Below are positions 7,876-45,619 of a DNA stretch of 45,619 bases, piece by piece. Both the position numbers and the translations under genes were made by a program. The notes beneath the pieces are model-generated. The model was not told the origin of the DNA. It ran no database searches and saw only the letters and a program-made list of their open reading frames with translations. Origin of the DNA: Bacteroidia bacterium (GTDB lineage: Bacteria; Bacteroidota; Bacteroidia; J057; JANWXU01); contig JANWXU010000019.1 of NCBI GenBank assembly GCA_025057395.1, forward strand, positions 1-45,619, read 5' to 3'. Position 1 is the stretch's first letter. Every line of letters begins with the position of its first letter.

Positions 7876-10800
7876 TTATTCATTAATTGCTAAAAGAAAT
7901 TCTATTTCAATTACTTTCTGATTATAAGCTCGAATAGTATCCAAGTATGATTTTTGAGTTTGCAAAACTTGGTTGATGGCAATAAGAAGCTCGGTATAAT
8001 CAATTTCGCCTGCACTATAACTTTTTTGTGCTGTTTCAAGCAATAAAGAAGCTTGCTTGAGGACCACTTCCTGATAATACTGCAAAGCATTCTGTAGCCC
8101 CAAGTACATAGTTTTTGCTCTTTCAAAAGTACTTTCTAACTCTAGGGCAGTCGCTTCCCATTTCATTTGAGTAATATCAATTTGTTTTTCTGCTGCCTGA
8201 ATACGTGCTTTATAAGGGCTACGCCATAAAGGAAGTGCTATTCCTAATTGAAAATAGTTGTAAGCTCTAGCTATACCATAAATCGATTGATTAAAAAAGC
8301 CCAAAGTAAGGTCTGGAAAAAGGCGTGCTTTTTCTACTTCTTTTTGAGCAATTATACGCAATTTATCTTTTCGCCAGTATTCCCATAGGGGGTTTTGCTC
8401 TAGGTGGGCTTCTTGTAGGTTAGTAGAAAAAATCAAAGGCTCATTCCCAGAAATAAATACAGGTCTTTTTTCTCCTAGTAGTCTTCCTAATTCCCAAGCT
8501 GCGCTTTCTACTTCAGCCTTTAATAAATTCATAGCATTTTCAATTTCTTTACGCCGCATGCGAATAGTTACTGCCTCTAACGGGGCAACGTCTCCAATTT
8601 GCGAACGGACTTGCATAGCCTTATCATAGGCTGCAAATAATGAGTCTTGCTCAGTAAGAAGTTTTTGTTGGGCTTTCAAAAAAAGCATTTCGTAGTAAAT
8701 ACTTTTTACCTGAAATGCTATCTGATTGGCTATCACCTTTTGGTTAGCTTGCCTCAATTGGGTTTCTGCTTTGGCTAAAGCTTGCACCTTCCGGTAGTAG
8801 TTAAGAAAGGGCATTTGGTGGGTTATTCCTAACACATAATCATTTTCAGGCTCGTTTACATTACCATAAGTAAAAATAAAATTAGTTTTTCCCAGCTCCC
8901 AAACTGCCTTTTGTAGTATACTAGATTGTTCAATTTCCAAAGTAGTAGCTCGCAAACTTAAATTCGATTGTTGAGCTCGTTCAATGGCTTGGGCTAACGA
9001 TAAAGTTGGAAATGTTTCCTTGGACTGTGCGCACAAAGAGCTAGCCTGTAAGCAAAAAATAAGGGTACATACGAGCATAAAAACTGGCAAACACGCTTTA
9101 CTTAAAAAAGCTTTATGAACGAAACCGTATAAAATGGGTAAGACAAACAAAGTAAGAACTGTGGCAGAAACCAAGCCTCCAATTACAACCGTTGCTAAAG
9201 GACGCTGAACCTCTGCTCCATTTTCAGTAGAAACAGCCATGGGCAAAAAACCTAATGCTGCTACAAGAGCAGTCATCAATACTGGGCGCAAGCGTACTCG
9301 CACCCCCTGATAAATGCGCTCAAGGGGCGGTATCCCTTGCGCTTGTAATTCATTAAAATAGCCCATTAAAACAATTCCATTTAGTACTGCAACGCCAAAA
9401 AGAGCAATAAAACCAACTCCCGCAGAAATACTGAAAGGCATATCTCTAAGCCAAAGCGCCCAAACGCCGCCAATTGCTGCAAGGGGTATAGCCGAAAAAA
9501 TAAGAACTGTTTGCTTAAAAGAATGTAGTGTGAAATAAAGCAGAATAAAAATAAGGCTCAAAGCAACAGGTAAGGTTATTAATAATCTTTCTTTAGCTGC
9601 TTTTAAATTTTCAAATTCTCCCCCATATGTAATGTAGTAGCCTACAGGAAGCTTAATACTTTGAGTAATTATCTTTTGTAAGCTAAATACCACCGTTTCT
9701 ATATCTTTACCTCGTACATTAATTCCAACTGCTATTCTTCTTTTGCCATGGTGCCGATTTATCTGCATGGGTCCTTGCTCGTAAGTAACGCTAGCAACCT
9801 CACTAAGAGGTACTTGCGTTAAGCCATGTTGAGGTGAAGGTAGAGCAATATACAACTCCTCCACTTGATGGATAGTCTTTCGAAAGCTTGTATCTAGACG
9901 CAATACTAAATCAAATTTTTTTTCACCTTCGTATATTACCCCTGCTTTTGTGCCTGCAAATGCCGATCGGATTGCAAAATTGACTTCTTGTCGCGTAATC
10001 CCGTAAAAAGCAAGCTTCTCTGGATAATACCGTACAGCAATTTGTGGCAAACCTGTTTGACGCTCCAGGTAAATATCTGCTACTCCCTCAATCTTACTAG
10101 CTATGACCTTAATTTGGTCAGCTATACGGGCTAATGTATCTAGATTCTCTCCATAGAGCATAATTGCAATATCGGTTTTGGTACCCGTCATCAACTCATT
10201 AAAGCGCATTTGAATAGGCTGCTGAAAACTAAAACTCACCCCTGGTAAAACAGAAAGTACTTTTTCCATTTTAGCTATTAAATCTTCTCTATTGGTTGCT
10301 GAAGTCCACTCTGATTTATCTTTCAGCAAAATCATAATATCTGCTGTTTCAATCGCCATAGGGTCAGTAGGAATTTCAGAGCTACCTATTTTACTTACCA
10401 CACTTCGCACCTCGGGAAAATTACGTAGGAGTAATTTTTCAATTGTGGTTGTCGTTAAAATAGATTGCTTTAACGAACTACCCGGTAAAATACTTACCTG
10501 CATGGCTAAATCTCCCTCTTCCAAAGTGGGAATAAACTGCCCCCCCAGCTGAGTGAAAAGAAGAATAGTACCTATAAAAAGTAAAATGATAGAAACCAAA
10601 AATCCATACCGAAATTTAATTGCATAATTAAGTAAAGGCACATATAGCTGGCTAACTTTATGCATTATTCTATCAGCAAGCGTCGATTGATTCTTTGCAG
10701 TGACATTAGTAAGTAACAAGGCACTGGCCATGGGGACGAAAGTGAGAGATAGTATAAATGCTCCGATAATGGCAAAAATTACAGTAAGAGCCATGGGAAT

Positions 10801-12225
10801 AAACATTTTACCTTCAATTCCTCCTAGCGTAAGTAAGGGAAGGTAAACAATCATGATGATAAACTCACCGAAAGCCGCAGTTCTGCGAATACGACAAGCT
10901 TGAGTACTTACTAGAGCATCCAGCTCAGGACCACGTGATAATTTTTCTCCTTGTAAAACTATCTTTTGCAAATGGTGCAAAACACTTTCCACAATAATCA
11001 CAGCCCCGTCCACCACTAAGCCAAAATCAATAGCTCCAAGGCTCATCAAATTAGCAGATATATCAAAAAGATACATCATTCCTAGGGCAAAGAGAAGAGA
11101 TAGGGGTATACAACTTGCCACAATAAAGCCTGCCCGAAGGTTACCTAATAGTAAAACCAAAACCAAAATTACAATTAAGCCCCCCTCCAGTAAATTATTC
11201 CGCACAGTATGAATAGTAGTATCTACCAGTCGAGTACGATCTAGAAAGGGAACTATCTTGATGCCTGGAGGCAGAGAGCTTTCAATTTCGGGTATTATCT
11301 TTTTTATATTTTTAGTTACCTGAGCAGAATTTTCTCCTTTTCGCATCAGAACAATTCCCCCGCAAGCTTCTTGTCCATCTTGTGTAAGGGCTCCATATCG
11401 CACGGCTGAACCTTCTTGTATTTTTGCTATTTGTGCAATTCGAATGGGTACCCCATTAACTACTTTGACCGGTAATTCTTCAATTTCTTTGGGGGAACGT
11501 AACAGACCAATGCCGCGAATGAAATAACTGTAGCTTCCTTTTTCTATATAAGCACCGCCCGTATTTTCATTATTTTTTTCTAGTGTCTCCCATACTTCAC
11601 TAAAAGTAATACCGTAACTTTTCATTTTTTCAGGGCTCAGGGCTACCTCATATTGCTTTACAAAGCCTCCAAAACTGCTAACTTCAGCAACTCCAGGTAC
11701 ACTTAATAACCTACGTTTAACGATCCAATCCTGGTAAGTACGCAATTGGGTAAGAGAATATTTGCCCTCAAAAGTAGAATCAACTTTTAGAGTATATTGA
11801 TAAATTTCTCCTAGTCCTGTACTAGGGGGCGCTAGCTCTGGAACCCCTAAACCTGGAGGAATTTGCTGAATAGCGCTTTGTAAACGTTCCGTTAGCCACT
11901 GTCTAGCTAAATATAGAGGCACATCCTCCTCTAAAACTACTGTCACAACTGATAAACCAAAACGAGATAAAGAACGAATTTCTACCAGGCGAGGCGTGGA
12001 AGCAAGAGCAATTTCAATAGGATAGGTAATGAATTGCTCTATTTCTTGCGGGGCTAGGTTGGGAGAGTAAGTAATAACCTGTACTTGGTTATTGGTAATA
12101 TCGGGCACTGCGTCTATGGGTATGTGAAGTAGTGCGTATATTCCCCAGCCCGCCAAAGCTATTGTAAAAAGAAAAACTAAAAATTTATTTCTAATAGAAA
12201 ATTGTATAAGCCAGTCGAAGAACAT
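7876..12225 (-). CDS. CzcA/CusA-type heavy-metal RND pump fused to a TolC-like outer membrane factor
   Basis: A 1449-residue fusion. Residues 1-1040 are a complete heavy-metal RND pump: N-terminal helix with IDAVPDITNNQVQV, porter domains, and TM4 with AIDFGLVVDGAVIIVES. In TM4, Asp400, Asp406 and Glu413 align with the proton-relay residues of CzcA, which points to divalent cations such as Zn, Co, Cd or Ni; that substrate is an inference. Residues 1045-1066 form a hydrophobic stretch ending LCAQ that looks like an internal signal peptide. Residues 1068-1449 are a CzcC/TolC-type outer membrane protein (SLAQAIERAQQSNLSLRA, later SYSAGEIDYTELL). Such fusions are known in Bacteroidota. The adaptor follows 11 bases downstream. 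Confidence 0.94.
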   Translation of the reverse strand: MFFDWLIQFSIRNKFLVFLFTIALAGWGIYALLHIPIDAVPDITNNQVQVITYSPNLAPQEIEQFITYPIEIALASTPRLVEIRSLSRFGLSVVTVVLEEDVPLYLARQWLTERLQSAIQQIPPGLGVPELAPPSTGLGEIYQYTLKVDSTFEGKYSLTQLRTYQDWIVKRRLLSVPGVAEVSSFGGFVKQYEVALSPEKMKSYGITFSEVWETLEKNNENTGGAYIEKGSYSYFIRGIGLLRSPKEIEELPVKVVNGVPIRIAQIAKIQEGSAVRYGALTQDGQEACGGIVLMRKGENSAQVTKNIKKIIPEIESSLPPGIKIVPFLDRTRLVDTTIHTVRNNLLEGGLIVILVLVLLLGNLRAGFIVASCIPLSLLFALGMMYLFDISANLMSLGAIDFGLVVDGAVIIVESVLHHLQKIVLQGEKLSRGPELDALVSTQACRIRRTAAFGEFIIMIVYLPLLTLGGIEGKMFIPMALTVIFAIIGAFILSLTFVPMASALLLTNVTAKNQSTLADRIMHKVSQLYVPLLNYAIKFRYGFLVSIILLFIGTILLFTQLGGQFIPTLEEGDLAMQVSILPGSSLKQSILTTTTIEKLLLRNFPEVRSVVSKIGSSEIPTDPMAIETADIMILLKDKSEWTSATNREDLIAKMEKVLSVLPGVSFSFQQPIQMRFNELMTGTKTDIAIMLYGENLDTLARIADQIKVIASKIEGVADIYLERQTGLPQIAVRYYPEKLAFYGITRQEVNFAIRSAFAGTKAGVIYEGEKKFDLVLRLDTSFRKTIHQVEELYIALPSPQHGLTQVPLSEVASVTYEQGPMQINRHHGKRRIAVGINVRGKDIETVVFSLQKIITQSIKLPVGYYITYGGEFENLKAAKERLLITLPVALSLIFILLYFTLHSFKQTVLIFSAIPLAAIGGVWALWLRDMPFSISAGVGFIALFGVAVLNGIVLMGYFNELQAQGIPPLERIYQGVRVRLRPVLMTALVAALGFLPMAVSTENGAEVQRPLATVVIGGLVSATVLTLFVLPILYGFVHKAFLSKACLPVFMLVCTLIFCLQASSLCAQSKETFPTLSLAQAIERAQQSNLSLRATTLEIEQSSILQKAVWELGKTNFIFTYGNVNEPENDYVLGITHQMPFLNYYRKVQALAKAETQLRQANQKVIANQIAFQVKSIYYEMLFLKAQQKLLTEQDSLFAAYDKAMQVRSQIGDVAPLEAVTIRMRRKEIENAMNLLKAEVESAAWELGRLLGEKRPVFISGNEPLIFSTNLQEAHLEQNPLWEYWRKDKLRIIAQKEVEKARLFPDLTLGFFNQSIYGIARAYNYFQLGIALPLWRSPYKARIQAAEKQIDITQMKWEATALELESTFERAKTMYLGLQNALQYYQEVVLKQASLLLETAQKSYSAGEIDYTELLIAINQVLQTQKSYLDTIRAYNQKVIEIEFLLAINE

Positions 12226-12940: not shown

Positions 12941-15900
12941 TTATTTCATAACCTGCAACTTTCTTATAGTTTTATGATTTTCCTTACTTAAAATAAGGTA
13001 ATATGTTCCAGCACTTAAGTGAGAAATGGATAGTTGATAAGTATCGGTATTAACTGAAGATGGAACTACATGCTCTAATAATATTTTACCCAGTAAATCC
13101 CTAACAGTAATCTGAGTACCTTCTAAATTTTCACCTTGAATGGTTATAAACTGATTCGCCGGGTTAGGATATATAGAAAAATTTGCTTCATTGGAAGCAC
13201 CTATTCTAGAGGGCGAAACTAAAGTACTAAAAATGAAAGCAGGCGTGTAACTACTATGGCTACCATTACAAATAGCCTGCACATAAAATTCATACACTGT
13301 ACCGTTTGTTAGGCTAGTAAGAGTAATAGAATTGCTAGTAATAGTAGAAGTAGACCAATTAGCTAGCCCTTGGGTACGATAAGCTATATTATAACTATTT
13401 GCCGAGGGTACAGCAGACCAAACAATAGTCGCTGAGTTATTAGTAACCCCTAACAAACGAAGATTAGTGGGAACCAAACACTCTGTTATTACAAGGCTTA
13501 AGGTAGTAAAAGTAAAAGTACCAGAGCTAGCACTTTGCCCGGCACTACAAATAGCCTCCACTTGGTATTCATAAGGGGTAGAGGGCTGTAAGTTATTTAA
13601 AGTTATCGAGGTAATAGTAGTACTTAAGTGATTCCAAGAACTACTACCCGCTATTCTGTATTTAAATAAATACTGAATAGCCGTAGTTACAGTACTCCAA
13701 CTAATCACAGCACTAGAGGAAGTAATAGAAGATACTGAAACATTAGTAGGCGGAAAACAAACGGTAACGGGTGCAGCCGAAGTGGTAAAATTGAAAAGGG
13801 GAGAATAACCACTGGCAACATTACTACAAACAGCACGCACAAAAAAATCATAAGTAGTGGAGGGAGAAAGACCCGTTAAAACAATACGAGAAGTAGGACT
13901 TGTCAAGTTAATCCAATTATTGGTACCCTGTACTCGATACAAAATTTCATAATTGATAGCATTCATTACAGGACTCCAAGAAATAGTAGCCGTGTTGTCA
14001 GATACCGAAGAGGCCTGCAAAGAAGTAGGTGTAGAGCAAGATTGCCCGCTTAGCGTAGTAAAAGTTTGTATTGCAGAATAAGGACTCACGCTATTAGTAC
14101 AAAGACTTTGAATGCGGTATTCATATAGCGTAGAAGCACTTAAACCATTTATTACAGCAGTAGTAGAAGACACAGTTAGCTGTTGCCAATTTCCTCCAGG
14201 CTCACGATACTCTACTGTATAAAAATTGGCGCCGTTCACGGCTTCCCAATTAATTGTAGCACTATTGGGTAATATGTTAGTAACCCAAATTTTGGAAGGC
14301 GCTAAACAATTTTGAACAGCTGGCAGGGTAGTAAAATTAATGCCCGCAGAAAAAGCACTCACAGATTTAGAGGCATCACAAACTGCCTGAACTTGAACTA
14401 TATACCTAGTAGCCGGAGAAAGATTAGAAACAGTGGCAGTATTTGTACTCACAGAAATTACTACCCAATTTTCGCTCCCTTCTACAGCATAACGAAGATT
14501 GTAACTAGTAGCTCCCGCTACAGCTTGCCAAGAAAAGGAGGCAGAAGTACTTGTAACATTGCTAAAGTTTAGCAAGTTAGGAGAAGCGCAATTACTTTCC
14601 AGAGTAGTAAATATTCCAATGCTCGAATAAACACTAGAAGTACCGTCACTACAATTAGAGCGTACTTGAAACTCATAAGTAGTTTGTGGCAATAGCTGTT
14701 GAAGAAGAAAAAAGTTAGTATTGGCAGTAACACTTTGCCAAGTAGGGCTATTCTGGGCCCTATATAGTATAGTATAAGAAGAAGCGCCTTGTACAGCAGT
14801 CCAATTAATTTGGGCTGTAGTGGAGGTTAAATTAGTAGTTTGTCGAATTAAGGGCGTAGGACATTGGTTAGTAGAACTACCAGCAATGGATAAATTTAAT
14901 GTATAAGGAAGACGTGCGTTAAAAGCACCATCGTAACCTACAATTCTTAAAAAATAAGTCCCTGGTGCCGCCGCCGACATACTAATTCTTTCACTTGAAG
15001 TTCCCCAATTATCAGATTCCCTCAATAGTTGGTTGTTAGCGTCATAAAGCTGGATATCATAATCAGCAGGTAAATTAGTTAATGTTACCGTAAAACTTGC
15101 AGTAGTACTAAGCGTAAAACGAAACCAATCTACGTCCCCTACCGGACAAATATACCCATACGCAGTTGCCGGAAAATTCTTAGCATCTGGTAGAGTATTA
15201 TTAGGCTCAAATGGATCAGTTCTACATTCTGGTGTTGTGAGCCGGCATAACATAGCGGCCCCTGCATCAATTCTACCACCCCCAATTTGCCCTGCAAAGC
15301 CTGGATTCAGAGGAAGAATATCTACAGCAGTATTTTTTATGCACTCTTCCACACCTGCGGGAGAAATTCCAGGACGATAAGATAAGATTAAAGCTGCCAA
15401 TCCTGCCACTAAGGGGGCAGCCATGGAAGTACCATTATAGGTCGCATAACTAGAATTAGTAGTAGCTACTGTACTTAATATATTAGTACCTGGAGCCATT
15501 ATATCGATATGGCTGCCATAATTAGAAAAAGAAGCTTTTTTATCGTGAGAATCAGTTGCTCCCACACATATAACGTTTTCATAGGCTGCAGGGTACATCT
15601 TGCTAGAAACATTATCATTTCCCGCAGCCCCTACTACCACAATTCCATTGTTTACAGCTCGATTAATTAAATCCTGCCCGTAAATAAATGTGCGATAACT
15701 GCCCCAAGAAAGACTAATTACATGAGCTCCTCTACTAATAGCATATTCAATGCCCTCGTAGCCATGAGAGATTACATCTGGATCGTCTGTATTATCACGT
15801 GTGCACTTAACCGGCAGAATACTAACATTGTAGCCAATTGAAGCTATACCAATACCGTTATTAGTAACTGCTGCTGCAATTCCTGCACAATGGGTACCAT

Positions 15901-16501
15901 GAGAGAAGGTAGTATTGGTAGTACGAAAAATAGGCGGATTAGGGTCCGGGTCACCATCTGCTACGTCCCAACCTGCAACTACTTTGGGCGCTAAATCTTG
16001 ATGGGTTGTACGCACGCCATCATCCACAATAGCTATCATGATAGTACTTAAACCTGTGGTCAGGGACCAAGCATGGGGAGCGTTAATTCTATGTAGCGCC
16101 CACTGCAAGGAGTAATAAGGATCATTAGGAATACTCACTATGCGATCGATAGGTCGCTGCTCGACCAATTCTATTTCTGGAAAAGATGAAAGCTCCTTCA
16201 TCAAAGCATATACCTGCGCATGGTTATCAAAAAGTAATTTATAATATGCTTGCAACTCTGGATAAGGAAGAGTAGAAGCTTTCTGAATAGAGACAACTTT
16301 ATACTTCTTTATAATTTCTTGCCATTTGGGAGGTAAACTTTGAACATCTGATTTTTGGGAATACAAAAACAGCGTTCTATTCTTTTTTACCCTTAAATAC
16401 ACCACCCCATCCCAATAATCAGGATGAACTTTTTGAGCAAAGGAACTGGCACCTAGAGCTACCGCTAGTAGCAAAATAACAACAAAATATCTGAGATTCA
16501 T
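12941..16501 (-). CDS. Secreted subtilisin-like (S8) protease with PPC, six fibronectin III domains and a T9SS sorting domain
   Basis: A 1186-residue exported protein. Residues 1-22 are a signal peptide ending SFAQ, and about 25-125 is a propeptide-like region. The S8 catalytic domain spans about 135-420, with Asp160 in IVDDGV, His201 in HGTHCAG, oxyanion Asn295 in GAAGNDN and Ser359 in NGTSMAAP, so all catalytic residues are present. About 425-550 is a PPC domain (DPFEPNNTLPDAKNF, then DVDWFRF). Then come six fibronectin III domains of about 90 residues, each starting with Cys and with W-x-x-V near the middle. The end (IYPNPANQFITI ... KLQVMK) is a type A sorting domain for T9SS export and surface anchoring. 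A terminator follows at 12891. Confidence 0.95.
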   Translation of the reverse strand: MNLRYFVVILLLAVALGASSFAQKVHPDYWDGVVYLRVKKNRTLFLYSQKSDVQSLPPKWQEIIKKYKVVSIQKASTLPYPELQAYYKLLFDNHAQVYALMKELSSFPEIELVEQRPIDRIVSIPNDPYYSLQWALHRINAPHAWSLTTGLSTIMIAIVDDGVRTTHQDLAPKVVAGWDVADGDPDPNPPIFRTTNTTFSHGTHCAGIAAAVTNNGIGIASIGYNVSILPVKCTRDNTDDPDVISHGYEGIEYAISRGAHVISLSWGSYRTFIYGQDLINRAVNNGIVVVGAAGNDNVSSKMYPAAYENVICVGATDSHDKKASFSNYGSHIDIMAPGTNILSTVATTNSSYATYNGTSMAAPLVAGLAALILSYRPGISPAGVEECIKNTAVDILPLNPGFAGQIGGGRIDAGAAMLCRLTTPECRTDPFEPNNTLPDAKNFPATAYGYICPVGDVDWFRFTLSTTASFTVTLTNLPADYDIQLYDANNQLLRESDNWGTSSERISMSAAAPGTYFLRIVGYDGAFNARLPYTLNLSIAGSSTNQCPTPLIRQTTNLTSTTAQINWTAVQGASSYTILYRAQNSPTWQSVTANTNFFLLQQLLPQTTYEFQVRSNCSDGTSSVYSSIGIFTTLESNCASPNLLNFSNVTSTSASFSWQAVAGATSYNLRYAVEGSENWVVISVSTNTATVSNLSPATRYIVQVQAVCDASKSVSAFSAGINFTTLPAVQNCLAPSKIWVTNILPNSATINWEAVNGANFYTVEYREPGGNWQQLTVSSTTAVINGLSASTLYEYRIQSLCTNSVSPYSAIQTFTTLSGQSCSTPTSLQASSVSDNTATISWSPVMNAINYEILYRVQGTNNWINLTSPTSRIVLTGLSPSTTYDFFVRAVCSNVASGYSPLFNFTTSAAPVTVCFPPTNVSVSSITSSSAVISWSTVTTAIQYLFKYRIAGSSSWNHLSTTITSITLNNLQPSTPYEYQVEAICSAGQSASSGTFTFTTLSLVITECLVPTNLRLLGVTNNSATIVWSAVPSANSYNIAYRTQGLANWSTSTITSNSITLTSLTNGTVYEFYVQAICNGSHSSYTPAFIFSTLVSPSRIGASNEANFSIYPNPANQFITIQGENLEGTQITVRDLLGKILLEHVVPSSVNTDTYQLSISHLSAGTYYLILSKENHKTIRKLQVMK

Positions 16502-16697: not shown

Positions 16698-19600
16698 TTA
16701 GGAACCAGAGGCTGGCGGCAAATTGGATGAAGTTTGTCCCAAAATTTTAGTGCCTTTAAATTTTGCACCACTCAGGTTGGCTCCCTGTAAACGGGCACCA
16801 ATAAGATTGGCATTCAAAAAATTAGCATCTTTAAGATTGCATCCTTCTAGATTTGCGTCTCCCAAATCAATACCTTCTAAGCGTGCACAGTAAAAGTTAG
16901 CATTTTTTAAATTAGCCCCCTTAAAAACAGTATTAATAAGATGGGAAAATTTAAGATCAGCTTTTTCGAGGTTAGCAGCGTGTAACACTGCATTAGAGAG
17001 ATTAGCATCTGCCAAATTCGCTTCTATAAGAGTAGCATTGGATAAAATAGCTCCTGATAAATTAACCCCTACTAGAATGGCATTATCTAAAACACTACCA
17101 GACAAATCAGCTTGTTCAAAACTAGAACCTATCAGATTAGCATTCTGTAAGTCTATATTGCGCAAATTAGATTTATCAAAAATAGCCTTATTCAGCAAAG
17201 CAGTACGCAAATAGGCTTGCTCTAAAGAGGCGCTAGTAAAGTTAGCACCTAGCAAATTGGCTTCTGCTAAAGAGGCACCTCTTAATTCCGATTTTACGAA
17301 GTAGGCATCTTTTAAATTAGCTTTAGTGAGATTAGCTGCATTAAGGCATGCAGCCTCTAAATAACTTCCACTAAGGTCGGCACCATATAAATTAGCATTC
17401 TCTAACTGCGCATTAGAAAGTAAAGTAAATTTCAGATTAGCTTGCTCTAATTGAGAATCGCTCAAATTAGCACTTGAAAGATTAGCACCCGAAAGGACAG
17501 CTTGCTTAAAAGAGGAATTATTAAGACTAGAACGCATCAAATTCACTCCCGCAAAAATGGCTTTATCTAAAATACTAAAGCTTAGATGGATACATTCCAA
17601 ATTAGCACTTTCTAAATTAGCTTCTGAGAAATCATTATGGCTGAAATCTGCACTTTGCAAGCATGCTCTTACAAAAGTTGAACTTCTTAAAACCGTATTT
17701 TTGCATACTGCGTTTTGAAAATTAGCACCTGTAAAGTCGGCATGCGAAATATTAGAGGCATTAATTTGTACATTTTGACATCTGCAAGATTTAGCATTTA
17801 CTCGAGAAATATTGCATTTATCCAACACTCCATTTACCAGTGTACAACCTACCAAAGTTGCATTCTCTAAATTCACTTCTATTAGTCGGCTGTGCTCTAG
17901 ACGGGCATATGTAAAATTCGCATAAGAAAGATTAGAATGAATGATAGTAGCATTAGATAAATTAGCACCCTCTAAATTGGCATTAAATAAATCTACCTCC
18001 TTTAATTCAGCTTTAGCTAAAGTAGCGGCTACTAAATGGGTTTCCTTTAACGAACAATTTACTAATGTAGCGCTGCTAAAATCAGTATCCTTGAGGTCTG
18101 CTTTGTCAAAATTGACATTTTCAAAAACAGTATTGGCCAGCTTAGCACAGTATAAATAACAGCTCGTAAATACCGTATTTTGGCATACAGCCTTCTCTAA
18201 TTGAGCAAATTTGAGATCTGCATGAGAGAAGATAGTGTCTTTTAAATTAGCTTCCTGAAGAATAGCTCCTGAAAGATTTGCTCCACTTAGATTAGCCCCC
18301 TCCAAATTAGCCCCCTTTAAATTAGCGTCTGCTAAATTAGCACCTACTAAGTTAGCCCCTCTTAAATCTGCGCCTTGTAAGTTGCTGCCTTCTAGATTCG
18401 CCTCCTTCAATGAGGCCTGCACTAAAATGCAAGCATCTAATTTAGCGTGAACTACTTGCGCCTTCTCTAAATTTACGTGGATTAAATTAGCACCACTTAA
18501 AGTAGCGCCTACCAAATAAGCGCTTTCAAAATTACATCTTTCCAAATTAGCCGCCTCCCAACATGAAAATTTACAATTACTATTCGAAAGATTAGCCTTT
18601 GTTAAATTTGAACTTGCAAAGTTAGTACCTGAAAGAATAGCTCTTGCGAAATTAGCTCCTTGCAATAAACTACTATCTAACCTCGCATATTCCAAATTTG
18701 CTCCCTCAAAAATACACTCCTCGGCAATTGCTCCACTAAAATTAGCGCCCGCTAAAATAGCTCCCTTAAAGATGGAACCATTAAGCTTGGCTTCCCTAAA
18801 ATCAACAAACAATAAATTAGTAAAACTAAAATTAACGTTTTCTAATATTTCATTTTGAAAATTTGAATTACTTAAATCTAAAAGGGCTTCTTCAGATGGC
18901 TGTAATTCTACTACAACATCATCACTGGCCTCAAATTGCTCTTGCAGCATAGAAGCTGTCTCAGTCAGTGTTTTCTCGCTCCCACTAGAATCATTAGTTA
19001 TTTGATTATTTTGCAAAAACTTTTCTTCTGTTTTTTTTTCTTGCATTGCACCAGAAAGTACCGGAGAGAGAAGAAATTCCTCCTTCGCTTCTAACATACC
19101 GCCCTCTGCCTGTAGAGGAGGATTATTCTCTAAGAGTTGCTCCTCTGAAAAAATAGAGGGAGGATTTGCTATTTCTTTCAAAATTTGCTTATCGGAGGAT
19201 AAAAGCCCTTGGTTTCGATCTCTATCCTCAGGTAATACATCATGTTTTGTACACTCTTCAACATGAGCCAATTTGTTTTTCTGAGTAGTTAGAGAAAAAG
19301 ATTTCAACACCTCCTGCCAATCAGGTAATTCTTCCTCTTCCATTTCAAAGCCTTCTAATGGACCTGTAGGGGATAAGTGTAACTCCTCATTTTCGGGCAA
19401 AGGGTCTTTTAAACTAGTAATGGTAGAGGTAAAAAATATATCCAGCGGTAACTCTTCTCTACTTTCCACATCATCCAAAAAAATAGAAAGGTCTGTTTCC
19501 CCCATATTTTGCTGGAAACTAAGACCAGGGTCTTGGGGAGCAGAAGGACTAGAAGAAAGCGGGGAGACTCTTGACTCTACTGAGGCCAATAATTTTTCAA

Positions 19601-20585
19601 TTTCTTCATTTATAGCCTCATCACTATAACTTTGAGCTACAGAGAAGTTTACAGTACTCTCCGGCTGCTCTTTAAACTTAGAAAAAGATGGGACTTGATA
19701 TTCAACTAATTCAGAAGCTTCTGAAGAGATAGAGATTAGTTCTTGAGTTGTAGCTTTCGTATCTACTTGCTCCTCCTGCAAAGAAAACAAAGAATTGAGC
19801 CACTCAGGCTGCTCCCCCCCTTGAATTTCCAATGGCTTAGATACAAGGAGGTCTTCTTCGGATGGGGATGCTTTAGCATCAGCTGCTTCTTTAGGAGGCA
19901 CTATTACATAAGGTTCTTCGTCGCCTGGAATAATAAACTGATAAATATCTAATGAATTAGGCCTAGTACCAGGTGCTTCTTCTTCAGGATTAATTTTTTC
20001 AGTAGAAATTTCTTCAGGATTTTCTTGCTCCAAGATAGGATTAGAACAGACAAAAGGAACTGATTGAGCCAAACTTAATAAAGCTTCAACTTCTGAAGCA
20101 GGCAAATCACCAAAGTCATTGCCATCCAAAAAAGCTCCCTCTATTGCAATACCTGCTAAACGAGCTTCTTTGAAGCTCGTTCCTTTTAAGTAAGCTCCCT
20201 TTAAATTGGCATTAATTAGAAAAGCGTTTTCAAAAGTGGCATTGGAAAGAATAGCACCTTCAAAATTTGCTCCAATAGCTTTAACTTCCTTTAAATTTGC
20301 TCCCCGCAAGTCGGCACCGCTCAAATCTGCTTTCACCAAGTTGGCTCCTGCTAGATTAATTCCTCGCAAATTTGCTTTCTTTAAGTTAGCTCCTGCTAAG
20401 TTAGCATCAGAAAGATTAGCTTGCTCTAAGTGAGCCTCCTCCAAATCTGCCTCCACTAAGTGTGCAAATGATAATTCTGCAAATCTTAAATTTTCTCGTG
20501 CTAAGCATACCTTGGCCCCCTGCCCTCTTGCTTCCCTAATAATTTGCCAAACATCTTTATCTGTTAATCTTCTTTCCATTGCCAA
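16698..20585 (-). CDS. Giant two-block pentapeptide-repeat protein
   Basis: A 1295-residue protein made almost wholly of A(N/D)LxX pentapeptides, which fold as a right-handed four-sided beta helix. Block 1 (residues 31-160) holds 26 repeats in unbroken register. Residues 165-570 are a Glu/Ser/Pro-rich, probably disordered linker. Block 2 (about 574-1283) holds 142 repeats in unbroken register, about 35 coils. There is no signal peptide, no membrane segment and no T9SS tail, so a cytoplasmic place is most likely. The start is MAMERRLTDKDVWQIIREARGQ-like, a short helical cap. The linker contains two similar PEW/PDW motifs. Function is unknown; small pentapeptide proteins can mimic DNA and bind gyrase, but this one has no evident link to that role. 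Confidence 0.92.
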   Translation of the reverse strand: MAMERRLTDKDVWQIIREARGQGAKVCLARENLRFAELSFAHLVEADLEEAHLEQANLSDANLAGANLKKANLRGINLAGANLVKADLSGADLRGANLKEVKAIGANFEGAILSNATFENAFLINANLKGAYLKGTSFKEARLAGIAIEGAFLDGNDFGDLPASEVEALLSLAQSVPFVCSNPILEQENPEEISTEKINPEEEAPGTRPNSLDIYQFIIPGDEEPYVIVPPKEAADAKASPSEEDLLVSKPLEIQGGEQPEWLNSLFSLQEEQVDTKATTQELISISSEASELVEYQVPSFSKFKEQPESTVNFSVAQSYSDEAINEEIEKLLASVESRVSPLSSSPSAPQDPGLSFQQNMGETDLSIFLDDVESREELPLDIFFTSTITSLKDPLPENEELHLSPTGPLEGFEMEEEELPDWQEVLKSFSLTTQKNKLAHVEECTKHDVLPEDRDRNQGLLSSDKQILKEIANPPSIFSEEQLLENNPPLQAEGGMLEAKEEFLLSPVLSGAMQEKKTEEKFLQNNQITNDSSGSEKTLTETASMLQEQFEASDDVVVELQPSEEALLDLSNSNFQNEILENVNFSFTNLLFVDFREAKLNGSIFKGAILAGANFSGAIAEECIFEGANLEYARLDSSLLQGANFARAILSGTNFASSNLTKANLSNSNCKFSCWEAANLERCNFESAYLVGATLSGANLIHVNLEKAQVVHAKLDACILVQASLKEANLEGSNLQGADLRGANLVGANLADANLKGANLEGANLSGANLSGAILQEANLKDTIFSHADLKFAQLEKAVCQNTVFTSCYLYCAKLANTVFENVNFDKADLKDTDFSSATLVNCSLKETHLVAATLAKAELKEVDLFNANLEGANLSNATIIHSNLSYANFTYARLEHSRLIEVNLENATLVGCTLVNGVLDKCNISRVNAKSCRCQNVQINASNISHADFTGANFQNAVCKNTVLRSSTFVRACLQSADFSHNDFSEANLESANLECIHLSFSILDKAIFAGVNLMRSSLNNSSFKQAVLSGANLSSANLSDSQLEQANLKFTLLSNAQLENANLYGADLSGSYLEAACLNAANLTKANLKDAYFVKSELRGASLAEANLLGANFTSASLEQAYLRTALLNKAIFDKSNLRNIDLQNANLIGSSFEQADLSGSVLDNAILVGVNLSGAILSNATLIEANLADANLSNAVLHAANLEKADLKFSHLINTVFKGANLKNANFYCARLEGIDLGDANLEGCNLKDANFLNANLIGARLQGANLSGAKFKGTKILGQTSSNLPPASGS

Positions 20586-20754
20586 TTTTTGTATTTATTT
20601 AGAGCTAAAAGCTTTTTAGAAAAACTTATTCGGGTTTCTATGCAAAGTAAAAAATATTTATTACTAAATCTATAAAAAAAGTATACACACTCTTCTGTAA
20701 TCTACAAAAGTGTTAAAATAATTGACTACTGCTTAGATTCCAATCTATAAAAAT

Positions 20755-20798
20755 AAATAGAGAGCTATTCCCAATTCATAAGGAATAACTCTCTATTT
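20755..20798 (-). terminator. Terminator after the SprB-like adhesin gene
   Basis: A 17-bp inverted repeat (20755-20771 and 20782-20798) with one mismatch and a 10-base loop. On the minus strand it is followed by an AT-rich ATTTATTTTTATAG tract. It lies 24 bases past the stop codon at 20822, separating the adhesin from the pentapeptide gene. Confidence 0.8.
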
Positions 20799-20821
20799 AG
20801 TTTCAAAATAAATAGCTTATT

Positions 20822-23800
20822 TTATCTTTTCATTAATTTACTACTCCACCAATAATTAGTACTTTTTTCATCTAACACTTGAACAAAGTAAATCCCCGTA
20901 GGATAAGCTCTAAGGTCCAGTTCTACTAAATTACAACCGTCCTGGATATCCACACTATGAGTTGCCAAACTTCTTCCATATAAATCAACTACACGAACAA
21001 TTACCCTATTTACCTCTCTACTTATAAATTGTAAATTCGTAAAGCCAGTCGTAGGATTAGGGAAAAGATGGGGTTGCGCAAAAATTCCTCTCACTGCTAT
21101 CATCTTTGAATTTCCTAAGCACCCCTCCGCCGCCATTCCTATTACTAACATTCCCGATGAAAGGCATGTTTGACGAAAAGAAGAATCACTATACATTTCT
21201 TGTACAGAACATGCACTAAATTCGAAGTAACTTCCGGGAACCCACGGGAGCTTACGCTTAAATTCTATACAAGCTAGTTCACCTCCTATCGAAGAGGTAG
21301 CGTTGAAATGAATAGAAGCTTGAATCATTCCATTTTCCCATCCTTTTACCTGTGCATTAACCCCTGCTAATGAATTTATAATCCCTGTAGGCTCAAGGTA
21401 AGTTTCATCGTATTTTAAACATACTTCTAATCGTTTTACACCTACAGGAAGTGGTCGGTAAGCTTCAAGCTTTAAACAGAAACGCTCTGCATTGCAGGGT
21501 ATTACTTCACTCGGTAAGCGATAGGGGCAACAAGTACCTACATTGCTTGGTATTTCTACTTCTTGCGTTACCTGGCAACCGTTTGCATCTCGAACTTGCA
21601 AAGTATACCTTCCAAAACTTAAACCACTAATCTGTGGCGTATTAGCACCATTTGACCATAAGTAAGTATAAGGGGCTAAACCTCCGCTCACTAAAGCTCT
21701 TGCTTTTCCCGATGCATCACAATTATCCGGCTCTGAAGTGATATCTACTCGAAGAGGAGCAGGCTTGGGAAATACTGTTGTTGAAGCGGTTGTCTTACAT
21801 CCCCGACCATCTACTACAGTCACAGAATATGTTCCTGGAACTAAACCAGCATTTATGGGTTGCTGTACGCCGTTAGACCAGAAATACGTATAAGGCTCAA
21901 ATCCATTAGGCTGGGCAATAGCTTTTAAAACAGCTCCCTCATTTTGACAGGGGGTATCAAGCCTATGCAAAGAAACCTCCGGACCAGAAGGAGCCCCTAT
22001 AATAAATTCCCTTGTAATCGAACAACCCGCAGCATCCGTAATTTGCACAAAACAATAACCCGGAGCCACATTATCAATATAATTTAAATGACTTATTCGA
22101 GAAGAGCAAAACCATCGATAAGTATAAGGCTCCACTCCTCCATTTACTATAGCTCTAGCACCTCCTCTTCCCAAACATGTAGTAGGATTTTGAGTTTCTA
22201 TTTGGACGTCTAAACTTCTACCTGCTTCTATAACAAATGAAGCCGAAGTAGTACAATGATTACCATCCGTAACCGTAAGGGTATAAGAACCTGGTAATAA
22301 ATTATTTACTTCAGGTGTTATTGCCCCGTTAGACCAGTAATACATGTATGGCGCCGCTCCTCCAGAAACCATTGCCTTTGCACTCCCACTTTCTAAACAA
22401 GTAGCATCTTTCTTTTGAACTACAACTTGCAAAGGAGGAATACTTGCAATAGCGGCAGTAGCTTGTGTTGAACAACCTTTGGCATCAATAACAGTAAGAC
22501 TATAATTGCCTTCAACGATTATATTGTGCAAACTGTTACTCGTACTTCCATTTTGCCACCAATAAGTGTAAGGAGGAGTACCACTGCTTACATTTGCTTG
22601 TATACTTCCTGGAGTACAACTAATAGGAGTAACAGTAAAAGTAACTTGGGGCCAAGTAGGACCTGCTATAGTAAAAGTTCTAGTAGCTGTACACCCTGTA
22701 ATGCTATCATATACTGTAACGGCGCATTCTCCGACGGGTAAATTGTAATGATAGGGAGCGTTAGGATTCAAACTGCCACAATGCCAATTATAGTAATAAC
22801 TACCACTTCCTCTCGTTACTGTTACTTCAGCTTGTCCTGGTTTCAAGCAGGTTGCGGCCTGGGGCTTTACAGCGACTTCAAGGTCAGGTGCTTTTTCAAC
22901 TATAATGCTTGTATCGCTTCTGCAGCCATTAGCATCTATTACCGTCACCCTATAAATACCTGGTGCTAAACGAGTATTCTTAGCAGTAGTAACACCATTA
23001 GACCATTCTATTCTATAAGGCGCAGCTCCTTGCATTATACTAACTTCTGCACTTCCACTTGGAACACAGCCCGATGCCTGAGTTTGAATACTTAAAAGAG
23101 GCGGAGTAAGAATATGCACATGGGTAGTAGCACTTGCTCTGCATCCTTGCTTATCAAGTACACGCACCGTATACTCACCAGGATATAACGGCCTTAGAAT
23201 ATTTCCTTGATGGCCATTTGACCAAATAAACTGATAGGGCTCTTCTCCTCCTGTTACTTGGGCCTGTACATAGGCTTGACGACCACAGCCTATAATCACT
23301 TGCGATGGAAGATATACAACAGGAGACTGGGGAGCTGCTATAGCAAAAGTTTGAGTGCTCTCACATCCTTTATCATCTCTAACTGTTACGCTACACTCAC
23401 CTACCGGTAAATTATGCACAAAAGCAGTATTAGTAGCCGATAAAATGCAATTCCACATATATCTATAATTACCCGAGCCGCCCGTAACGACAGCTCTGGC
23501 ACTACCACCACTTGTACAAGTAGCGGCTGTAGTTAATACCCGCATAAAAAGAGGAGTGCTACCCTCAAGTGTTACTTGATTTTCTGCTACGCAACCATTA
23601 GCATCAGTTACTCTAAGGGTATACGTACCAGGATGCAAGTTAGAAACAACCTCCGTTGTAGCTCCATTGCTCCATTCAAGTCTATAAGGCGCTCTTCCCC
23701 CCCTAACTCGTGCTCTTAACTGACCTAAATAAAAGCAAGTAGGAGGTATTTTTTCTACTACTACAGAAGGCCCCGGGCTACCTATAACCTCCACTGATGC

Positions 23801-25666
23801 TTGCGCATAGCATCCTTCTGAAGTAGTAACTGTTGCAGTATAAATACCTGGTGTAAAAACGTGAATAATATCACCCCTAGCTCCATTTGACCAATTAATT
23901 TGATAAGAACTAGCACCCTCTACTACTGCCCTTACTGTACCTGGCAGATTACAGAAAATAGGTACCACTTCCAGCCGCAGTCGAACATCCTGCAACTTAG
24001 ATATTACAAAATTTTCACTTACACTACAGCCCGCATCATCGTATACCGTTACGGAACATCGTCCTTCTGGTAACCAATCGATTTCAGATTGGTGTGGATC
24101 AGCAAAAGCACAGCTCCAGCTATAACGGTAGTTTCCAGTTCCTCCACTTGCTATTGCTTTTGCTTTTCCTCTCTTCTGGCAGGTAGCAGGTTCAGTAACT
24201 ACATCTAGGCTAAGGGGCGGACGATAAGGAACCTCTATGGAAGATACATAAGTACACCCTACTACGTCTGTAACCCGAACAGTATAAATACCAGGCAAAA
24301 CATTTTCATTTTGGGCTATAGTAACACCATTAGACCAGCTATAACTATAGGGTGGAGTTCCACCTCTTGCTATCGCTATCAAATTAGCTACCTTTTGACA
24401 ATTAGAAAACTCCACGCTAATAAAAGCCTCTATAGCAGGAGAGCTTAGAATAGTAGTACTTGCACTGGCAGTACAGCCGTAAATATCTATTACCTGTAAG
24501 TTATACCTACCAGGCCTTACAATAGTTCTCTCTGAAACATTCAAGCCCGGTTCATCTTCCCACATGTATACATATGGGCCCGTACCGCCTATTACATTAG
24601 CCCTGATAGCACCTCTTCTACCGCAAGTGCCATGGCTTACATCTAGGCTAATAGTTGGAATAGGATTTCTAACTACAAGTGTATCTGTTACCTGACAGCC
24701 CCTCGCATCTACCACAGTCACAGCACAAGAACCTGGTGCTATTTGAGGATTACCCTGAGTTGTTACACCGTTACACCAATAGAAAGTATACGGACCCTGC
24801 CCCCCTCCTACAATCGCAAATGCGCTTGCCCAAGGACTACGGCAAGTAGCATCATTAAACTTAAATGCTAGGGTTGGCTTTTCATAACTTTCTATCCTTA
24901 CGCTGGCAGTTGCTAAACAACCATTTTTATCCGTAACTCTTAGAGCATAAGTACCCGCGCCAACCCCAATTAAATTCTGGGTAGTTGCACCGTTAGACCA
25001 TTCAAAAATATACGGCGCACCTCCCCCTTGTACAGTAACATTAATAGCACCATCATTGCGGCAAGTACGCTCTGTAGCAGAGATAGTAAGCTGTGGAGGT
25101 GTTATAATAGGAATAAAAGTTGCCACTTGGACTTTACATCCTTGAGTATCTTTAATATCCACATATACACTATCACCCGCAACTAAATCTGGTATAATTA
25201 ATTTTCCCGCGCTAAATGAAAAATTTTGTGCATCTAAAAGAATTCTTTCTTCTCCCCTCTTAATAATAACGCAGGCTATTAGTAAAGAATCCGTTTGTGC
25301 ACTTTTAGCAGTTATGGTTAACTTATTTCCACTTCTTTGGCAAACACTCTCAATTTCTGTGTTTACCCTAATACAAAGATCTTCAGAAATAAGAGGCTCA
25401 CTACCAACGTTTACCCGAGAAAATAAATTAGAAATATTAATACTATTTAAGACGTGAGACTGCCGCCCCCCCCAGATTGAACTTCTAGAGCTTTCAAAAA
25501 GTACATTCTTAAAATTACCACTAGTACTATATACGTTGCCTCCCCTTATTAGCAATATGCTGAACAGGGCTATATATAAAACAAAGTGGTAAGTATTGCC
25601 CTCCTTTATAATACTTGAAATTTTGCTGCCTAAAAGTTTAAGAGACAGGTACTTTCCTCTCGTACT
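20822..25666 (-). CDS. SprB-like repeat adhesin with T9SS sorting domain
   Basis: The protein has 1614 residues from the ATG at 25666. An earlier in-frame ATG at 25723 would add 19 residues; 25666 is preferred because AGGAGA sits just before it and it leaves a shorter lead before the hydrophobic signal segment (FVLYIALFSILLI). Counting from 25723, residues 211-1399 are 16 SprB-type repeats of about 74 residues. Each has T/xC near its start, then GGxxPYxYxWSNG, PGxYxVxVxDxxGC. Every third repeat has an extra Cys pair. Then comes a cohesin-like beta domain (about 1410-1530) and a type A T9SS sorting domain (LFPNPTTGFTNLQF ... KLMKR). In Flavobacterium SprB is the mobile adhesin of gliding; whether this protein works in gliding is not shown. 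Confidence 0.92.
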   Translation of the reverse strand, partial: STRGKYLSLKLLGSKISSIIKEGNTYHFVLYIALFSILLIRGGNVYSTSGNFKNVLFESSRSSIWGGRQSHVLNSINISNLFSRVNVGSEPLISEDLCIRVNTEIESVCQRSGNKLTITAKSAQTDSLLIACVIIKRGEERILLDAQNFSFSAGKLIIPDLVAGDSVYVDIKDTQGCKVQVATFIPIITPPQLTISATERTCRNDGAINVTVQGGGAPYIFEWSNGATTQNLIGVGAGTYALRVTDKNGCLATASVRIESYEKPTLAFKFNDATCRSPWASAFAIVGGGQGPYTFYWCNGVTTQGNPQIAPGSCAVTVVDARGCQVTDTLVVRNPIPTISLDVSHGTCGRRGAIRANVIGGTGPYVYMWEDEPGLNVSERTIVRPGRYNLQVIDIYGCTASASTTILSSPAIEAFISVEFSNCQKVANLIAIARGGTPPYSYSWSNGVTIAQNENVLPGIYTVRVTDVVGCTYVSSIEVPYRPPLSLDVVTEPATCQKRGKAKAIASGGTGNYRYSWSCAFADPHQSEIDWLPEGRCSVTVYDDAGCSVSENFVISKLQDVRLRLEVVPIFCNLPGTVRAVVEGASSYQINWSNGARGDIIHVFTPGIYTATVTTSEGCYAQASVEVIGSPGPSVVVEKIPPTCFYLGQLRARVRGGRAPYRLEWSNGATTEVVSNLHPGTYTLRVTDANGCVAENQVTLEGSTPLFMRVLTTAATCTSGGSARAVVTGGSGNYRYMWNCILSATNTAFVHNLPVGECSVTVRDDKGCESTQTFAIAAPQSPVVYLPSQVIIGCGRQAYVQAQVTGGEEPYQFIWSNGHQGNILRPLYPGEYTVRVLDKQGCRASATTHVHILTPPLLSIQTQASGCVPSGSAEVSIMQGAAPYRIEWSNGVTTAKNTRLAPGIYRVTVIDANGCRSDTSIIVEKAPDLEVAVKPQAATCLKPGQAEVTVTRGSGSYYYNWHCGSLNPNAPYHYNLPVGECAVTVYDSITGCTATRTFTIAGPTWPQVTFTVTPISCTPGSIQANVSSGTPPYTYWWQNGSTSNSLHNIIVEGNYSLTVIDAKGCSTQATAAIASIPPLQVVVQKKDATCLESGSAKAMVSGGAAPYMYYWSNGAITPEVNNLLPGSYTLTVTDGNHCTTSASFVIEAGRSLDVQIETQNPTTCLGRGGARAIVNGGVEPYTYRWFCSSRISHLNYIDNVAPGYCFVQITDAAGCSITREFIIGAPSGPEVSLHRLDTPCQNEGAVLKAIAQPNGFEPYTYFWSNGVQQPINAGLVPGTYSVTVVDGRGCKTTASTTVFPKPAPLRVDITSEPDNCDASGKARALVSGGLAPYTYLWSNGANTPQISGLSFGRYTLQVRDANGCQVTQEVEIPSNVGTCCPYRLPSEVIPCNAERFCLKLEAYRPLPVGVKRLEVCLKYDETYLEPTGIINSLAGVNAQVKGWENGMIQASIHFNATSSIGGELACIEFKRKLPWVPGSYFEFSACSVQEMYSDSSFRQTCLSSGMLVIGMAAEGCLGNSKMIAVRGIFAQPHLFPNPTTGFTNLQFISREVNRVIVRVVDLYGRSLATHSVDIQDGCNLVELDLRAYPTGIYFVQVLDEKSTNYWWSSKLMKR

Positions 25667-25746
25667 CATAATTTCTCCTAAACTCAAGAATAAAAGAGAG
25701 CATTGCTGAAAAGAACTCGTCATTAGTCGAAGCTTAATAGTTGCTG

Positions 25747-44488: not shown

Positions 44489-45619
44489 TTATTCCACCAC
44501 CTGCACTCTTGCCTGATAACGTCTACTTCCCTGCAATACCTCCACCAAATACACCCCACTCCCCAATCCCCCTATCCTCTCGCCTATCACCTGACGGCCT
44601 ACCTCCACCTCTATTTCTTCCTCATGTACTACCCTGCCCCCCATATCATAAACCCGCAATACCGCCAAGCCACCTTCACCCGACTCATACTCTATCCGAA
44701 ACGCCCCACGGCTCGGATTCGGGTATACAATCAAACTAAAATCCCCTCCAATTATACTCCCCCTAGAAGCCGACATCACCGCACTCACCACCTCGCTCCA
44801 TTCCGAACGAACCCCACTCCCCGCAGAACAACTCGTACAATTCGTACGAACTCGAAAACTATACACCCGGTTCCCCTCCAACCCCTCTATCACTACCGTC
44901 CGGTTCGGATGCGGCACCAACACCTGCAACCACGTAGAGGGATCACTCCCCGCTATCCCGTACGACACCACGTAACATACCCCACCCCCTTCCACCGGCA
45001 ACTGCCAACTCACCACCGCCCTTCCCCCGCCCTGACCTACCGCAGAAACACCCCGCACCGTCGGACACCCACTCCCGCAATCCCTTACTTCCACCCGCGC
45101 CGTAACTACTCGCGACGTGCACCCCCCCACACTCACCACCAACGAATATACCCCACCATCACCTAACCCTACCCCACTTCGTACAGGATTCTGTAAGGTA
45201 GAACTCCATCCCCCAGGGCCGCTCCAATGATACTGCCCCCCACTCACCCACGGCGCCACCAACTCCAAGTCCCCGCCCACGCACACCGGACCATTATGTG
45301 AAATCCCACTCACCACCGGCACCGGTTGAATCACCACATTCACGCTCGATACCCCACTCCGACATCCATTCAATGTTGCATACACCGTATATACCCCACC
45401 ATCCAGCGTGCCCACATTCACCCGAACCGGATTCTGCACCCCAGAACTAAACCCATTCGGGCCGCTCCACGTGTATACCGCCCCAGGTATCGTACTCGCC
45501 CCTAGCTGCAACGTCTGACCCGCACATAACGGACCGTTCGACGTAGCCACCGGCGCCTCCGGCGTAGCTCGCACCTGCACCATCACAGAACTCGCCACCG
45601 ACGTACAACCCCCCACTAC
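44489..45619 (-). CDS. T9SS-sorted surface or secreted protein with Ig-like and Fn3 domains, C-terminal part
   Basis: The frame is open to the right edge of the window, so the N-terminus is missing; 376 codons plus the stop are visible. Two Ig-like repeats come first, each with GPxCxGxxLxL, YxWSGPxG, QNPVR and GGVYxxxxxxxGC. A fibronectin III-like domain follows (CPTVRGVSAVGQGGGRAVVSW to RVRTNC in pattern), and then a type A T9SS sorting domain (LIVYPNPSRGAFRIEY, then RVYDMGGRVV). The codon usage is unlike the rest of the window: in the first 25 visible codons 17 end in G and none in C. This suggests transfer or unusual selection. Function is unknown beyond export through T9SS. Confidence 0.9.
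   Translation of the reverse strand, partial: VVGGCTSVASSVMVQVRATPEAPVATSNGPLCAGQTLQLGASTIPGAVYTWSGPNGFSSGVQNPVRVNVGTLDGGVYTVYATLNGCRSGVSSVNVVIQPVPVVSGISHNGPVCVGGDLELVAPWVSGGQYHWSGPGGWSSTLQNPVRSGVGLGDGGVYSLVVSVGGCTSRVVTARVEVRDCGSGCPTVRGVSAVGQGGGRAVVSWQLPVEGGGVCYVVSYGIAGSDPSTWLQVLVPHPNRTVVIEGLEGNRVYSFRVRTNCTSCSAGSGVRSEWSEVVSAVMSASRGSIIGGDFSLIVYPNPSRGAFRIEYESGEGGLAVLRVYDMGGRVVHEEEIEVEVGRQVIGERIGGLGSGVYLVEVLQGSRRYQARVQVVE

Follow-up and report, generated by a model that had tools for sequence, protein, structure and literature searches.

A 1,633-amino-acid protein encoded on the minus strand (20822..25723) of a 45,619-nucleotide stretch of Bacteroidia DNA (hereafter the window) carries 16 SprB repeats, every third of which holds an extra pair of cysteines. 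We consider it probable that this is a fibre exported by the type IX secretion system (T9SS) and probably anchored at the cell surface, whose array would have arisen by tandem duplication of a three-domain A-B-C unit (about 220 amino acids) in which B already possessed a second, cross-strand disulfide. In the B domain, the Cys located where strand C ends would bond with the Cys that takes the place of the usual Tyr where strand F begins, a Phe in strand G would refill the core gap left by the Tyr, and the domain would thus have its C-F edge locked and withstand unfolding better. The resulting fibre would contain a reinforced domain at each third position, about every 220 residues. SprB-repeat proteins rank among the largest extracellular proteins in many Bacteroidota, and we found little literature on the growth or mechanics of their arrays; the present array combines a readable history, in the form of its three-domain units, with a built-in marker.

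Gene layout, family and sorting route

The open reading frame spans 25723..20822 with a likely true start at Met19 (about 25669), close to the 25666 end of the span 20822-25666 in the original prediction, which did not state the strand; an open reading frame check found no long frame on the plus strand of that region. All features given here for the window lie on the minus strand. From the N to the C terminus, the protein comprises a hydrophobic stretch, an N-terminal domain that is poorly conserved, an array of 16 Ig/PKD-like SprB repeats (21545..25102, amino acids 208-1393) that runs from R1 (24887-25102) to R16 (21545-21763) as five A-B-C units and a final A, a Cys-rich region with nine Cys (21068..21544, amino acids 1394-1552), to which the family scan gave no family assignment, and a T9SS type A C-terminal sorting domain (20858..21067, amino acids 1553-1622; TIGR04183, E=1.3e-14; PF18962, E=6.8e-14). 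Right behind the stop codon, a terminator-like hairpin (20754..20799; 19 pairs then TTTTTAT) matches the consensus, the number of such hairpins in the region being at chance level (5 found, 4.5 expected).

The products of the neighbouring open reading frames, one a pentapeptide-repeat protein and the other an alpha/beta hydrolase, give no functional clue. The former (16698-20585, 1,295 amino acids) has very long pentapeptide-repeat runs (PF00805, 29 stretches) interrupted by a low-complexity acidic middle. Elsewhere in the window lie a subtilase (12941-16501) in which a pre-peptidase C-terminal domain is combined with six Fn3 repeats and a type A T9SS tail, a 1,449-amino-acid frame that reads in translation as a CusA-type efflux pump apparently fused with a TolC-like outer membrane channel (7876-12225) and the end part of a large Ig-like/Fn3 T9SS protein that runs off the window (44489-45619).

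The repeats belong to the SprB repeat family PF13573 (E=9.5e-60; 198.4 bits against a gathering cut-off of 28; 10 separate stretches), and the Por_Secre_tail domain, together with a T9SS in the genome that includes a homolog of the SprA translocon (2147.8 bits), places the protein among type A substrates. The type B sorting domain TIGR04131 gave no match in this protein, TIGR04183 being the only sorting model matched; type B tails occur elsewhere in the same genome. SprB itself has SprF as its anchor and belongs to the type B substrates (PMC12635249). Because the tail here is type A, the sorting-tail test places the protein outside the SprB gliding adhesins, and of the label 'SprB-like adhesin' in the original prediction the repeat family stands while the likeness to SprB does not extend to the tail. 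Proteins with type A tails pass by way of PorV and are either released or attached to surface LPS, and those with type B tails go to other carriers (PMC10994853). The protein is thus probably T9SS-exported and surface-anchored, with anchoring by the PorV/LPS route predicted from its tail (PMC10994853), and by analogy its role is most likely that of a fibre or stalk with adhesive use.

Period of three and growth of the array

Exactly two canonical Cys (columns 15 and 71 of the alignment) are present in each of the 16 repeats, and an extra pair is limited to the five class B repeats R2 (24665..24886; C317/C333), R5 (23996..24223; C538/C556), R8 (23333..23557; C759/C777), R11 (22661..22891; C982/C1000) and R14 (21992..22222; C1206/C1224), so that the repeat alignment and Cys count bear out what had been noted from the sequence. 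One extra Cys lies behind the core Trp and the other stands in place of the Tyr of the PGxYxV strand, the Cys count being even in all 16 repeats. In R5, R8, R11 and R14, the post-Trp Cys is at W+2, the two Cys are 18 residues apart and the CD loop is 3-4 residues longer; R2 deviates, with the Cys at W+1, a spacing of 16 and a short, unextended loop. The [A/G]-P-x-x-P linkers reported behind R8, R11 and R14 are indeed there (AAPQSP, AGPTWP and GAPSGP), and the WSNG motif ascribed to the remaining repeats is not shared by all of them, R3 having WEDE and R12 WQNG.

All five repeats with the extra pair fall in one class modulo 3 (P=0.001 for placement), and the similarity among whole repeats follows the same period: mean BLOSUM62 similarity at lags 1-9 was 92.5, 94.5, 126.8, 78.2, 88.5, 127.3, 83.2, 100.2 and 121.4, respectively. 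Lags 3, 6 and 9 still ranked highest (78.8, 78.8 and 77.3 versus 52-66) after the Cys columns and CD loop had been masked, so the likeness of repeats n and n+3 extends beyond the marking Cys. By label permutation, period 3 was significant across the column subsets tried, the Cys/loop-masked one included (P about 1e-4 to 7e-4), and in the N-terminal half alone (P=0.007); periods 2, 4, 5 and 7 gave no signal in the same similarity test of 16 repeats, and the signal at period 6 follows from period 3. Classes A and C were mutually distinct with B left out (P=0.002-0.008), and the unit is therefore a true A-B-C one rather than a special B alone.

In the maximum-likelihood tree, R5, R8, R11 and R14 lie on one side of a branch with support 93/90 and R1 joins R7 (83/80), with little else resolved. 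The expected clustering of repeats n and n+3 is accordingly seen in the similarity and in the R5/R8/R11/R14 clade; in the best tree, A and C do not form clades and R2 falls outside the B clade, although constraining them as clades was not rejected for any class (AU p=0.34 for A, 0.37 for B with R2 and 0.29 for C). R2 is nearest to B solely once the Cys and loop columns are taken out (73.8 to B versus 63.8 and 65.2 to the other classes). Its place outside the B clade of the free tree and its different Cys spacing count against the account that we favour, and we conclude that R1-R3 are the most diverged or least certain unit of the array. The period-3 similarity in every column subset, the distinctness of A and C and the R5/R8/R11/R14 clade together support growth by duplication of three-repeat units, as had been proposed.

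That the pair was instead gained separately at unrelated repeats, and is periodic in appearance only, is extremely unlikely. Such convergence could draw on the aberrant spacing and short loop of R2 and on the apparent emergence of the pair in several other proteins (see below), but it is largely refuted by the placement of the Cys and by the independent period-3 signal in the masked columns. R2 alone could represent a separate gain. With unit duplication as the preferred history, the pair has been kept in all five units while the repeats diverged to 30-48% identity.

Rarity, linkage and predicted structure of the extra pair

We surveyed 1,739 repeats in 91 SprB-repeat open reading frames from this genome and other Bacteroidota genomes and found the extra pair in 10 of them: five in this protein, two in a Saprospiraceae protein (L118) and one each in L185, L186 and L190. 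Its sites are thus in use in 0.6% of the surveyed repeats, half of them in this protein, and the pair is absent from the surveyed paralogous arrays of the same genome; as the residue-by-residue reading covered sampled loci, more cases may exist. Extra Cys pairs at other sites are common in the family, about 240 repeats having one Cys behind the first canonical Cys and another immediately ahead of strand F. A pattern scan of 84,980 genomes (with 15 residues fixed from Cys to Gly, and hence blind to different spacings) returned mostly chance matches, L118 being the sole SprB repeat among them. In a profile search, the B repeats here scored 113-121 bits and those of L118 96-101 bits (both were used in building the model), with all others at 72 bits or less. 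Since no outside match approaches the B-repeat score, no ortholog of this protein was seen among the relatives compared, which included no other genome of its family, and no relative was found in the plasmid collection. A tree of 83 repeats over 53 columns implied eight changes of the pair, at a resolution too poor to count gains well; the pair has arisen in several other proteins.

The two extra Cys are tightly linked, with both present in 10 of the 1,739 repeats, the post-Trp Cys only in three and the strand-F Cys only in none (Fisher P=4.2e-24), a P value that overstates independence because repeats share descent within the five separate proteins of the set. A second set contained 12 pairs, seven of them in sequences already counted, and zero half pairs. 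The strand-F residue is Tyr in 1,520 of the 1,729 other repeats, and a Phe in strand G accompanies the pair in 9 of 10 repeats, compared with 191 of 1,469 others (13%; P=1.1e-7), which we read as a candidate refilling of the core space after loss of the Tyr.

AlphaFold2 (AF2) models of R7-R9 (pLDDT 92.9, pTM 0.65) and R1-R3 (pLDDT 88.9, pTM 0.56) each comprise three all-beta domains. In the model of R8, strand C ends at the Trp and C759 lies two residues further, in a Tyr-x-Tyr-x-Trp-x-Cys alternation, and C777 falls close to where strand F (DSSP 126-133) begins. Strands C and F are adjacent antiparallel strands in Ig-like folds, which makes a cross-strand bond plausible. In unrelated proteins the two Cys strictly go together, and they sit where strand C ends and strand F begins; both facts strongly suggest a disulfide, and we predict that the extra pair likely forms a second, cross-strand bond within the domain. 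If this bond forms, B domains are likely to be more resistant to unfolding. The modest pTM values suggest a loose domain-domain geometry; because domain orientation is unfixed in the models, the chain could be flexible, and greater stiffness of the B domains would not necessarily carry over to the fibre. The proposed stiffening at regular points is speculation.

The extra Cys might alternatively engage in inter-chain bonds or reactive disulfides with partner proteins, the period of three then spacing lateral cross-links between fibres. Inter-protein disulfides are known among T9SS and gliding proteins, as between SprF and GldK (PMC12635249); the co-occurrence of both Cys in neighbouring strands of one domain, the compensating core Phe and the even Cys number in all 16 repeats nonetheless suit an intradomain bond, and we regard cross-linking as very improbable.

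Comparison with other repeat arrays

The array shares the PGxYxVxVxDxxGC and Y-x-W-S-N-G motifs and the two canonical Cys with the SprB family (PF13573), to which SprB of Flavobacterium johnsoniae and numerous surface proteins of Bacteroidota belong, and differs in the second Cys pair of every third repeat and in its type A tail, type B in SprB. A strong higher-order period (2 to 7 repeats) was found in 7 of the 52 arrays with at least nine contiguous repeats, this one included. A 24-repeat protein from another Bacteroidia family (L084:1-13001, corresponding to G027:C52:28000-41000; open reading frame on the minus strand) likewise has a period-3 super-repeat (P=0.0006 for similarity), with four-Cys repeats at 3, 9, 12, 15, 18 (and 23) (P=0.017 for Cys placement); it carries the common pair of the family, at the sites given above for about 240 repeats, and not the pair described here. 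In L097, Cys mark about every fourth repeat (P=0.009), with a period-4 similarity of z=6; these P values for L084 and L097 are uncorrected for 15 arrays and six periods. Duplication of units thus seems to yield Cys-marked units repeatedly.

Such arrays bear on whether the pair is a neutral passenger that arose once and was copied with the three-repeat units, its spacing reflecting unit size and being mechanically meaningless, and its persistence reflecting the free thiol that loss of one partner would leave. Periods of 2-7 repeats with or without Cys marks, and different pairs at every third repeat in L084 and roughly every fourth in L097, are what would be expected if units copy whatever they carry, and half pairs are nearly absent. 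The pair is, however, present in all five units here despite their divergence, and its pattern is kept among Saprospiraceae proteins at 33% identity, which argues for its maintenance by selection, at a minimum for domain stability; we regard neutral carriage as a serious but unlikely alternative to the reinforced A-B-C unit.

The Saprospiraceae family in question (about 900-1,060 amino acids) comprises L118/L225 (L118:4515-7199, minus strand), L228 and L238, a search of 199 genomes of the family of L118 having yielded three added proteins, with five further extra-pair repeats beyond the 1,739-repeat survey. These orthologous proteins are collinear, with 33-60% identity over about 700 amino acids, and have the same rare pair, mostly with the same G-strand Phe, at a regular spacing kept between species; they differ from the present array in having six repeats with the pair on alternate ones (period 2), all in the pattern '..X.X.', and a type B tail (tested in L118). 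We further postulate, as a doubtful generalization, that the regular spacing of disulfide-reinforced Ig domains is a design principle of Bacteroidota surface fibres, kept by selection and setting the sites of bending and unfolding under load. If true, this principle would span the rare C-F disulfide (with its G-strand Phe) or a commoner second pair, at every second, third or fourth domain. As several other arrays contain the rare pair and Saprospiraceae proteins keep it at alternate positions, the idea of spaced disulfides is open to experimental test by single-domain and single-molecule approaches.

The best fold match in the PDB was grappling hook protein A (GhpA) of Aureispira sp. CCB-QB1 (9flu, 9flp and others; E=4.8e-9), which was also the best profile match (E=1.4e-30). 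GhpA is 5,898 amino acids long, and single repeats give weak matches. Along GhpA (9flp_A), profile matches recur about every 249 residues, that is, about three domains as judged from the match positions only, suggesting that GhpA may also have a three-domain super-repeat.
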